Part shown: in pieces, positions 24,790-37,743 of the stretch | How the letters are laid out: every line of letters begins with the position of its first letter | How positions within the stretch are numbered: the stretch's first letter is position 1 | Origin: Halolamina pelagica | GTDB taxonomy: Archaea; Halobacteriota; Halobacteria; Halobacteriales; Haloferacaceae | NCBI RefSeq assembly: GCF_900115675.1 | Contig: NZ_FOXI01000006.1 | Span: forward strand, 124,001 to 188,000 | Reading direction: 5' to 3' | Length of the DNA: 64,000 nt | Made by a program: the position numbers and the translations under genes | Notes under the pieces: generated by a model | What the model was told of the DNA's origin: nothing | Seen by the model: the letters and a program-made list of their open reading frames with translations, nothing else | The model's database searches: none

Positions 24790-24872
24790 GTCCGCCACCC
24801 CGCCGGTTTTCGGTGTCCTCGCCAGTTCCTCCGTCGGTTCCACCCGAAGCGCCGGGGGTCGTCAGCGGAGGT

Positions 24873-28196: not shown

Positions 28197-28220
28197 TTCC
28201 ACTCGAAACGGAGGTGGGTG
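28197..28220 (+). other. Origin recognition box 1
   Basis: Reads TTCCACTCGAAACGGAGG and then TGGGTG. It is the left member of the convergent pair left of the A+T-rich element; its G-rich end points right. Confidence 0.88.
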
Positions 28221-29115: not shown

Positions 29116-30927
29116 ATGAACGACACCGACGACACAGGTTCGGAGGAAGAGGGCGGTCCGAGCGATAGCTGGCCGATCGCGGACGACGGCGAGGGCGACG
29201 ACGAGCCCGCTCCCGCGGACGCTGCCACCGCAACGGGCGACGCCGGGGACAGCGACGGCAAACCGGCCGACGCCGACGAAACGGTCGCCGACGAAACTGA
29301 CGCCGACCCGACAGACGCCAACGCCGCGACCGACGCTCCCGATCCCGCGGCGACCGAGAGCGCGACTGACGGCGACGGCGATGGGGACGACAGTGCGCCT
29401 AAGGAGGACGGGACGGATCCGGCTTCGGTCCTCGACACCGGGAGCGAGACCGTGACCGACGGCGTCGACGGCTCGATCGACAGCTCGGTCGACCTCGACA
29501 CCGGCGGCGTCGACATCGACCGGATGCTGGAGGACGACGGCGACAGCCAGGGGCTGTTCGACGACCTGATGGCCGGGGAGCCGATCTTCAGCAACAAGGA
29601 GGTCCTCAGACCCTCCTACACGCCCCACGAACTCCCCCACCGGACCGACCAGATCAACCAGATGGCCACCATCCTGGTGTCGGCGCTGCGCGGGGACACG
29701 CCGTCGAACATCCTCATCTACGGCAAGACGGGGACCGGGAAGACCGCGAGCGCGAAGTTCGTGAGCCAGGAACTGGAGTCCACCTCCCAGAAGTACGACG
29801 TGCCCTGCGAGGTGGAGTACATCAACTGCGAGATCACCGACACGCAGTACCGCGTGCTCGCCCAGCTCGCGAACAAGTTCATCGAGAAGAACCGCGAGAT
29901 CGTCACGGACCGACTCGAGGATCTCCGCGAACTCCGCTCGGCCGCGGCCGACGACGCCGACGTGCTCGCGGACACCGAGTTCGGTTCGGTCGAAGACGTC
30001 GACGAGGAGATCGCCGAACTGGAGGCCGACCGCGACGAGATGGAGGAGGTCCCCATGACCGGGTGGCCCACCGACCGCGTGTACACCAAGTTCTTCGACG
30101 CCATCGACTACCACGAGCGCGTGGTCGTCATCATGCTCGACGAGATCGACAAGCTCGTCGAGAAGTCCGGCGACGACACGCTGTACAACCTCTCCCGGAT
30201 GAACTCGGAGTTGGAGAACTCCCGGATCTCGATCATGGGCATCTCCAACGACCTGAAGTTCACCGACTTCCTCGATCCCCGGGTCAAGTCGAGCCTGGGG
30301 GAGGAGGAGATCGTCTTCCCCCCCTACGACGCCAACCAGCTCCGGGACATCCTCCAGCACCGCTCGGACGTGGCGTTCAAAGACGACGCGCTGACCGACG
30401 ACGTGATCCCGCTGTGTGCGGCGTTCGCGGCGCAGGAGCACGGGGACGCGCGACGCGCCCTCGACCTCCTCCGGACGGCGGGCGAACTCGCCGAGCGCAG
30501 TCAGGCCGAGACCGTCGAGGAGCAGCACGTCCGGCAGGCCCAGGACAAGATCGAACTCGACCGGGTCGTCGAGGTCGTCCGCACCCTCCCGACCCAGAGC
30601 AAGATCGTCCTGTTCGCGACCATCCTGCTCGAGAAGAACGGCGTCCACAACATCAACACCGGCGAGGTGTTCAACATCTACAAGCGCCTCTGCGAGGAGA
30701 TCGACGCCGACGTGCTGACCCAGCGCCGGGTCACCGACCTCATCAGCGAACTCGACATGCTGGGGATCGTCAACGCCGTCGTCGTCTCGAAGGGTCGCTA
30801 CGGCCGCACGAAGGAGATCTCGCTGTCGGTTCCGATCGAGGAGACCGAACACGTCCTGCTCTCGGACTCCCGGCTCGGCGACATCGAGAACGCCCAGCCG
30901 TTCGTGCAGGCCCGGTTCGACAACTGA
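29116..30927 (+). CDS. orc1: Orc1/Cdc6 origin-binding initiator
   Basis: 603 aa from the ATG at 29116. An acidic, Ala/Asp-rich N-terminal extension of about 145 residues precedes the conserved protein. The AAA+ domain starts near FDDLMAGEPIFSNKEVL, with Walker A GKTGTGKTASAKF, Walker B VVIMLDEIDKLV and sensor FTDFLDPRVKSSLGEEEI. An acidic insertion of about 35 residues sits between them. The C-terminal winged helix (about 500-590; GEVFNIYKRLCEEIDADVL, QRRVTDLISELDMLGIV) reads the ORBs. Orc1 binds the adjacent origin and loads the MCM helicase. The ORB over its promoter suggests autorepression. Confidence 0.97.
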   Translation: MNDTDDTGSEEEGGPSDSWPIADDGEGDDEPAPADAATATGDAGDSDGKPADADETVADETDADPTDANAATDAPDPAATESATDGDGDGDDSAPKEDGTDPASVLDTGSETVTDGVDGSIDSSVDLDTGGVDIDRMLEDDGDSQGLFDDLMAGEPIFSNKEVLRPSYTPHELPHRTDQINQMATILVSALRGDTPSNILIYGKTGTGKTASAKFVSQELESTSQKYDVPCEVEYINCEITDTQYRVLAQLANKFIEKNREIVTDRLEDLRELRSAAADDADVLADTEFGSVEDVDEEIAELEADRDEMEEVPMTGWPTDRVYTKFFDAIDYHERVVVIMLDEIDKLVEKSGDDTLYNLSRMNSELENSRISIMGISNDLKFTDFLDPRVKSSLGEEEIVFPPYDANQLRDILQHRSDVAFKDDALTDDVIPLCAAFAAQEHGDARRALDLLRTAGELAERSQAETVEEQHVRQAQDKIELDRVVEVVRTLPTQSKIVLFATILLEKNGVHNINTGEVFNIYKRLCEEIDADVLTQRRVTDLISELDMLGIVNAVVVSKGRYGRTKEISLSVPIEETEHVLLSDSRLGDIENAQPFVQARFDN

Positions 30928-36024: not shown

Positions 36025-37743
36025 CTACACGAACTTCCGGACGGTCATGTCCAGCGTGTCCAGGTCGAGGATCGGCGCGTAGCCGTAGTCGGGGTCGATG
36101 TTGACGGACTTCTGGAAGTCGGTCTGCTCCTGCCAGCAGCCGGAGTTGACCGCGAGGACGTTGTGGTACTTCCCCCACCCGAGCTTGTGGACGTGGCCGG
36201 TGTGGAACACGTCCGGCACCTCGTCGATCACGAGGTAGTCCGTCTCCTCGGGCGCGACGCGGGTGTGGCCGCCGTACTGCGGGGCGACGTGGCGCTTCTT
36301 CAGGAGTTGGTACATCGCCTTGTGCGGCTCGTCGTAGCTCGCTTTCTCCTCCGGGAGTTCGGCGATCACCTCGTCCAGCGAGACGCCGTGGTACATCAGC
36401 ACCGAGACGCCCTCGACGGTGACCGTCGACGGGTTGCCCGTAAACCGGGCGTCGTGGGCGCTCATGATGTCCCGGAGTTCCTCGGTGAAGGCCGGTTGGG
36501 GTTCGGCGAGCCGCACCGCGTCGTGGTTCCCGGGGATCATCACGATCTCCATGTCGCCGGGCACCTTCTTGAGCTCCTCCGCGAACGCCTCGTACTGCTC
36601 GTAGATGTCGACGATGTCGAGTTCCTCGTCCTGGTCCGGATAGACGCCGACGCCCTCGACCATGTCGCCGCCGATGAGGAGGTACTCGACGGACTTGGCC
36701 TCGGGGGTGTGGAGCCACTCGGCGAAGCGGTCCCACGCCCCCTGCGCGAACTCCTGGCTGCCGACGTGGACGTCGGAGATCAGCGCCGCCTGGACGTGTC
36801 TGTCGGCGGTGTTGGGCTTGTGGGTCCGGGGGACGTCGGGGAAGTGCAGCGAGTCGACGAACATGATCCCGCCGTCGTCGGCCAGGGTCCCCTGTACCGC
36901 GAGACACTCGTCGAGCAGCAGGTCGTCGACGAGCGGCGCGAACGCGCGGTCCTTCATGATCAGGCAGGGGAAGGTCCCGGTCGTGTCCTCCAGTTCGACG
37001 ATCCAGTGACCCGACGCAGTCGAGCGGATGTCGTCGACGAGCCCGATCATCTCGGCGTCGCTCCCGCCGGGCATCGACTGGATCGCCTCGGCGGGTCGGT
37101 GGTTCACGCGACCGCGCAGGAGCCCCGAGAGCCGCTCGTAGCGGTCCTGAAAGGTCCCGACGAACTCCTCGTACTGGCCGGTCCCGGTCGAGCGGCCGGT
37201 CACGTCGTTGGCGATCTCGGGTGCGGGCGGCGAACGGTTGCCCACGGCGTCGGCGGTCGCGGTCGGCGATGACGAATTAGTGGACCCCTCCGTTTCGACT
37301 CCGCTACCCGCCTCCTTCGACCGATTTTCAGAATTTTTCGCTCCAGTCGAAACGACGCTCCCGTCGCGGCCCGCCTCGGCGGACTCCGGCGACGAGTCAC
37401 CGTCGTCGGTCAGCAGTTCCTCGGCGGGAGTGGGGTCGTTCTCCCCGCCCATGTCCGTCGGCACCTTCTCCGCGAGGTCCGGCGCGCCCTCGGGCGTTTC
37501 GGGGTGGGAGAGCTCGTCCGGAGTCGCCTCGCTGTCGGGGTCGCCGCCGAGCAGGTCGTCCTCGAGTGCCGTGCGGGCGTGGTCGACGGTCACCACGAAC
37601 GCGTCGCCGGCGGCGTCGGCGGCCGCCTCCGCGGCGAGTTCGGGGTTGCCGGCGTTCGCGAGGAGGGTGACCGCCTCGCGCTCGGCGTTGTACCCCCGGC
37701 TCGTGAGTTCCTGCACGAGCCGTCGGTGGGACTCCTGTGGCAC
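36025..37743 (-). CDS. polB: DNA polymerase D small subunit DP1 (3'-5' exonuclease)
   Basis: 572 aa from the GTG at 37743; the open frame above it lacks conserved sequence. The N-terminal 60 residues are a small helical domain (VQELTSRGYNAEREAVTLL). Some 130 residues of acidic low-complexity linker follow, then an OB fold and a calcineurin-like phosphoesterase domain. Its metal motifs are SDVHVGSQ, GGDMVEG, GNHDA, YHGVS and HTGHVHK, all intact, so the proofreading exonuclease should be active. DP1 partners the large subunit encoded at 44670. The linker coding region contains two ORB-like sequences. Confidence 0.95.
   Translation of the reverse strand: MPQESHRRLVQELTSRGYNAEREAVTLLANAGNPELAAEAAADAAGDAFVVTVDHARTALEDDLLGGDPDSEATPDELSHPETPEGAPDLAEKVPTDMGGENDPTPAEELLTDDGDSSPESAEAGRDGSVVSTGAKNSENRSKEAGSGVETEGSTNSSSPTATADAVGNRSPPAPEIANDVTGRSTGTGQYEEFVGTFQDRYERLSGLLRGRVNHRPAEAIQSMPGGSDAEMIGLVDDIRSTASGHWIVELEDTTGTFPCLIMKDRAFAPLVDDLLLDECLAVQGTLADDGGIMFVDSLHFPDVPRTHKPNTADRHVQAALISDVHVGSQEFAQGAWDRFAEWLHTPEAKSVEYLLIGGDMVEGVGVYPDQDEELDIVDIYEQYEAFAEELKKVPGDMEIVMIPGNHDAVRLAEPQPAFTEELRDIMSAHDARFTGNPSTVTVEGVSVLMYHGVSLDEVIAELPEEKASYDEPHKAMYQLLKKRHVAPQYGGHTRVAPEETDYLVIDEVPDVFHTGHVHKLGWGKYHNVLAVNSGCWQEQTDFQKSVNIDPDYGYAPILDLDTLDMTVRKFV
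37283..37305 (-). other. ORB-like box inside the DP1 gene
   Basis: The minus strand reads CGGAGTCGAAACGGAGGGG, which keeps the ORB core and G-string. It lies in the coding sequence of the disordered linker, where codon choice is free. Confidence 0.65.
37340..37360 (+). other. Second ORB-like core inside the DP1 gene
   Basis: GCTCCAGTCGAAACGACGCT has a perfect TCCAGTCGAAACG core but no G-string. It lies 35 bases from the box at 37283-37305 and is oppositely oriented. Confidence 0.5.

Follow-up and report, generated by a model that had tools for sequence, protein, structure and literature searches.

ORB-Like Boxes inside the DP1 Gene

The window analyzed here, a stretch of 64,000 nucleotides from Halolamina pelagica, contains the orc1/cdc6 initiator gene on the plus strand (positions 29116 through 30927; domains Cdc6_C, Cdc6_lid, and AAA) and oriC1 at 28197 through 29109, with ORBs at 28197(+), 28323(-), 28531(+), 28869(+), and 29089(+). 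A further ORB, CTCCACTCGAAACGGTGGGGG, lies immediately 3′ of orc1 (30959 through 30979, plus strand; score 23.2). The gene for DP1, the small (exonuclease) subunit of DNA polymerase D, runs on the minus strand from a GTG start at 37743 to a stop at 36025 (36025 through 37743; NCBIfam NF003116, E = 1e-281) and harbors a pair of ORB-like boxes 7 kb from orc1 and oriC1. We refer to these as the left and right boxes in the sense of DP1.

Boxes were scored with a matrix built solely from 139 sites upstream of orc1 (consensus TTCCACTCGAAACGAAGGGGT). The right box, GCGGAGTCGAAACGGAGGGGT (37284 through 37304, minus strand), includes a G-string, encodes G-VETEG-S, and scores 11.5; the left box, CTCCAGTCGAAACGACGCTCC (37341 through 37361, plus strand), has no G-string and scores 6.7, its complementary strand encoding SVVSTG. 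They are separated by a 36-bp spacer with a GC content of 0.47 (37305 through 37340). The initial annotation had singled out two strings at this place, AGTCGAAACGGAGGGG (37285 through 37300, minus strand) and TCCAGTCGAAACG (37342 through 37354, plus strand); both are present within DP1 and are oppositely oriented as described, with the boxes directed away from one another, but they are 41 bp apart rather than the 35 bases given.

The window boxes are weak ORBs: each retains the ORB core and lacks one half, the plus-strand box being without its G-string and the minus-strand box having CGGA where TCCA is due. With up to one mismatch allowed, the motif CAGTCGAAACG is found 10 times in the window, where 2.0 would be expected; none of 100 shuffles equals this count, and the score of the DP1 pair was matched by 0 of 5,000 synonymous recodings. 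The boxes span codons ~128 through 153, ahead of the structured part of the protein; alignment to solved DP1 structures begins only at residue 189.

Box Pairs across Haloarchaeal DP1 Genes

Scanning 124 distinct haloarchaeal DP1 genes with the oriC1-trained matrix revealed a box scoring at least 25 in 89 of them (gene counts in this survey are not phylogenetically independent), and in most of the genes the boxes homologous to those of the window score 25 to 37. The core TTCCAnnnGAAACG and the G-string are present in most haloarchaeal DP1 genes, and homologs of the left box reach the full consensus elsewhere, for example TTCCAGTCGAAACGGAGGGGT. Most of the genes have full ORBs in their linker, among them genes of Haloarcula, Natronomonas, Halorubrum, Halobellus, Halogranum, Halopenitus, and Halopiger; the boxes of Haloferax are weaker. 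Within Haloarcula, the pairs of H. salina and H. pellucida are near-perfect.

The commonest layout is a divergent inverted pair. Start-to-start spacing in 90 scored pairs is 57 bp in 68, 54 bp in 10, 69 bp in 7, and another value in 5; the length of the spacer is thus kept, at 33 or 36 bp for the majority of genera, while its sequence drifts. Spacer GC content across the class averages 0.63, compared with 0.65 for the gene, and reaches 0.81. Most Halorubrum DP1 genes carry the right box only, and a few genomes have lost both boxes, including two in which DP1 is linked to orc1 (G007 and G010). Since several linked genomes are short of one or both boxes, the element is not essential. Outside the haloarchaea, none of 11 DP1 loci in other classes of the same phylum contains a box scoring above 15 with this haloarchaeal matrix. 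This speaks provisionally against a deeper ancestry of the element, as the spelling of ORBs could differ there.

Two further observations concern individual genera. In Halorubrum DP1 genes such as those of L115, L122, L135, and L148, the right box is almost letter-perfect and the left one absent, which offers a natural test of a single box. In Halonotius and relatives (L054, L121, L134, and L144), a weak ORB-like sequence, TTGCACCCGAAACRAAGGACT, lies in the catalytic part of DP1 (~1410 through 1455) and may be a coding coincidence.

Codon Choice within the Boxes

Permuting the synonymous codons within each gene produced 24,800 recodings across the survey. A box scoring at least 25 arose in 0.35% of these, compared with 89 of the 124 real genes; a pair scoring at least 40 arose in 0.036%, compared with 50 of 124, and a pair scoring at least 60, found in 21 of 124 real genes, arose in no recoding. 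Codon usage in the boxes departs from that elsewhere in DP1 (percentages in brackets): valine is GTT in 61 of 61 cases (6%), threonine ACT in 50 of 50 (5.7%), proline CCA in 89 of 90 (7.4%), and glutamate GAA in 100 of 100 (25%), while the glycine counts are GGA in 51 of 52 (8.6%) and GGG in 91 of 95 (23%).

The boxes in this tally were picked by score, and hold-out checks were therefore added. When genes were picked by the right box alone, the left box still had GTT for valine in 34 of 34 cases, ACT for threonine in 26 of 26, and GGA for glycine in 26 of 27. When sites were picked by peptide alone, valine was GTT in 66 of 73, compared with 9 of 267 for the remaining VS dipeptides in DP1. Residue changes fall mainly at positions where the ORB is tolerant (T/S/G/A/D/P after SVS; V/P/L/H/D/A before ET). 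Because the box codons are forced to the spelling of an ORB, selection acts on the DNA. The proposals that these sequences resemble ORBs, that they are under DNA-level selection, and that they lie in an otherwise unconserved linker are thus borne out by the Halolamina alignment described below, the class scan, the recodings, and the codon hold-outs. Judged from these sequence comparisons, the box pair was already there early in the haloarchaea and is maintained by selection at the DNA level.

Chance was considered as an origin of the boxes and is ruled out by the window shuffles, the synonymous recoding, and the recurrence across the class.

The Partly Worn Pair of Halolamina

Nucleotide alignment of close relatives had been set beforehand as a test of the boxes, and they do not drift like the linker. 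A 78-bp block holding both boxes is conserved and gap-free in seven Halolamina species, surrounded by linker that is ridden with gaps. Its codons are odd for a GC-rich genome (GTT TCG ACT GGA ... GTC GAA ACG GAG GGG), and the GTT and GGA codons are each kept in 7 of 7 species. Both boxes of the genus are partly worn, the left having lost the G-string and the right the TTCCA half. The window boxes are, on this evidence, a weakened example of the class-wide element.

We consider it possible, though on balance unlikely, that the window pair is in decay and has little function left, which would be compatible with any reading of the element in other genera. One half is gone from each Halolamina box, and in Haloarcula hispanica the function of oriC1m was abolished by mutation of the G-string (PMC3936714). 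Against decay, the block has stayed free of gaps with GTT and GGA invariant in the seven species, and the window gene reached its pair score in none of its recodings.

DP1 and Other ORBs around oriC1

DP1 follows orc1 on the same strand in most families, ~1.1 kb downstream of it; the Halolamina gene is inverted, sits 7 to 12 kb away, and has both boxes weakened. The distance between the two genes is 1 to 12 kb in most genomes and larger in others. At 14 to 57 kb the boxes are retained, often as one of the two; two genomes of a single genus, with distances of 144 kb and ~220 kb, have none. This loss with distance fits a role in cis and is a hint of one, the far cases amounting to a single event and the linked G007 and G010 also being boxless.

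ORBs are rare in the genome. A strict ORB pattern gives one to five matches per genome in 12 genomes, with the DP1 linker accounting for 9 of the 40 sites, and the reversed pattern used as a control gives none; with a relaxed pattern in 30 genomes the reversed control again has no match. Among 20 genomes in which oriC1 could be located, 51 of 65 ORBs outside oriC1 fall within 100 kb of it, compared with 4.8 expected under a uniform distribution; the figure is approximate, oriC1 having been positioned by hand from the inner ORB pairs and the positions of orc1, and one contig-end genome with three matches would raise the count if circular. Across 102 orc1 loci, matches number 127 per 100 kb upstream of orc1 and 58 per 100 kb in DP1, where every one falls in the linker; other DNA nearby has 4.3 per 100 kb. 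The DP1 pair is the sole intragenic member found of this extra-oriC1 set and the most widespread one.

The satellite ORBs that we inspected are mostly intergenic and keep the same gene junction between genera. One in the window, CTCCAATCGAAACGAAGGGGT (52636 through 52656, plus strand), is full-length, begins right at a stop codon, and lies 24 kb from oriC1; its counterparts in four other Halolamina genomes (L202 through L205) sit at the same location. Across the five genomes the distance to oriC1 is ~24 to 34 kb, and the flanks drift. Another, the weakened CTCCACTCGAAATCGGGGGGT (17405 through 17425, minus strand), lies between genes, 11 kb from oriC1; its junction is shared by four Halolamina genomes and one other genus (with L206 through L208 and L219), ~8 to 13 kb from oriC1 on the other side. 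A third junction, with an IMP cyclohydrolase-like gene on one side, is common to five genera, one of them from another family (L209, L210, L212, L213, and L217, at ~1500). The satellite neighbors that were checked are not replication genes (e.g., an IMP cyclohydrolase-like and a threonine-dehydratase-like enzyme). Since similar ORBs near oriC1 adjoin unrelated genes, the role of the set looks tied to the origin region and not to DP1. As at an initiator control locus, several initiator boxes lie outside the origin (the DP1 pair and the satellites), and their position near it is conserved.

Discussion

The boxes of DP1 share the spelling of the Orc1 sites in oriC1, and from this we infer that Orc1 binds them; cooperative binding and an effect on initiation are likewise predicted from sequence. 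We propose that the pair is a DNA-level element overlapping the coding sequence, made up of two divergently inverted oriC1-type ORBs with starts 57 bp (or 54 bp) apart, and that it takes up Orc1 and restrains or times re-initiation at oriC1, and we give this reading a probability of roughly one half. Orc1 molecules would occupy the pair in a fixed geometry, and the constant spacing of the boxes points to an interaction between two bound molecules. Within moments of the firing of oriC1 the sites in DP1 would double, and the doubled sites would absorb Orc1, so that a second initiation would be held back or timed. Such a role in the handling of Orc1 near oriC1 is favored because several such sites lie close to the origin, the DP1 pair among them, and the majority adjoin unrelated genes. 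Unless Orc1 is in short supply, two or three sites may not suffice to titrate it. Haloarchaea are, moreover, polyploid, which dilutes any titration clock.

Comparable arrangements are known for other initiators and origins. In H. hispanica, oriC2D consists of 11 ORBs downstream of cdc6E and controls oriC2 negatively, likely by titration of Cdc6E (PMC3936714). The DP1 pair resembles it in being made of nonorigin ORBs near an origin and its initiator gene, and by analogy probably limits initiator availability as well; it differs from that dense cluster in being one ordered, intragenic pair that is associated with oriC1 rather than oriC2 and is found class-wide. Bacterial datA and DARS and the DnaA-box clusters of Bacillus subtilis are also initiator boxes outside oriC and are thought to set initiator availability (PMC5295017); unlike these, the DP1 boxes correspond to Orc1/Cdc6 rather than DnaA, sit inside a replicase gene, and are known from their sequence. 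Compared with the ORBs of haloarchaeal oriC1 (PMC3528665, PMC3936714), they have the same core, the G-string RNGGGGT, and the inverted divergent orientation, but they are intragenic, have the fixed 57-bp spacing, prefer CAGT over CACT, and have no consistent AT-rich unwinding region. On a broader reading, whose chances we regard as evenly poised, the main origin is controlled throughout the class by dispersed Orc1 boxes within ~100 kb, anchored by the inverted pair in DP1 with the linker shaped to fit; this would be an archaeal counterpart of datA and DnaA-box clusters or of parS.

Binding of Orc1 within DP1 could instead govern transcription of the gene, as a roadblock or as an autoregulatory coupling of replicase to the level of initiator, the latter a proposal of the initial annotation. 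That the host gene encodes the replicase and is usually co-oriented just downstream of orc1 would suit such a circuit, and an Orc1 paralog, Orc1-2 of Sulfolobus, is a transcription regulator, acting as a noninitiator in the damage response (PMC9738581). The likeness to its regulon is that an Orc1-type protein works away from origins; the DP1 boxes, in contrast, match initiator ORBs. A regulator site 200 to 500 nt into a gene would be unusual, and the conservation of origin-proximal ORBs beside genes for IMP cyclohydrolase and the threonine-dehydratase-like enzyme speaks against a purpose specific to the replicase. So does the absence of the boxes from the two DP1 genes farthest from orc1, which, being from one genus, count as one event. 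We regard transcriptional control as improbable.

The ORB set, with the DP1 pair in it, might also organize or segregate the origin region, by a parS-like mechanism or by bridging the origin to the site, with Orc1 as a structural protein. Single sites scattered about an origin, the majority no farther than 100 kb from it, and the fixed inverted geometry at DP1 would be expected of such a system. Bacterial parS sites are likewise scattered near oriC, some of them within genes. No archaeon is known to us in which Orc1 takes part in segregation, and we hold this explanation to be quite improbable.

The initial annotation had also raised the idea of a secondary origin, at which Orc1 bound to the divergent pair would melt the spacer. 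Divergent inverted ORBs are found in oriC1, and the spacer of the window is relatively AT-rich. The spacer of 33 to 36 bp (36 bp in the window), however, compares with 183 to 245 bp between the inner inverted boxes of oriC1, and the class-wide spacer GC content, close to that of the gene, shows no AT-richness; on these grounds the idea finds no support and is very improbable. The single box of Halorubrum also argues against it, as does the location, archaeal origins being intergenic and adjoining orc1/cdc6 and the pair lying inside a coding gene. That a conserved linker peptide (SVSTG ... PVETEG) resembles ORBs by accident is hardly credible: the peptides flanking the boxes are recognizably alike between genera, but synonymous positions are locked to codons rare in the rest of the gene, residues at ORB-variable positions vary freely, and recodings of the same protein fail to recreate the boxes.

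An ORB pair in DP1 is probably new. A search of the open-access literature, with subscription papers outside its scope, found no earlier report of ORBs in DP1; the ORB surveys consulted were confined to intergenic regions flanking orc/cdc6 genes (PMC3528665), and a review, in the part available, places DP1 near oriC1 and mentions no ORB in it (PMC7776575). Surveys restricted to intergenic DNA miss such sites. How archaea prevent re-initiation of their origins is largely open, and a conserved nonorigin initiator site of fixed geometry is a direct handle on this question, since the pair can be erased by synonymous recoding without altering the protein. The element would also be a clear case of regulatory DNA that overrides, throughout a class, the codon choice of an essential gene.

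A Further Repeat Array near oriC1

An array of imperfect CGAAACG units, partly 18 bp apart, lies at 24840 through 25055 of the window, 3 to 4 kb from oriC1 in apparently noncoding DNA; a similar array is present in locus L039 (1356 through 1619).
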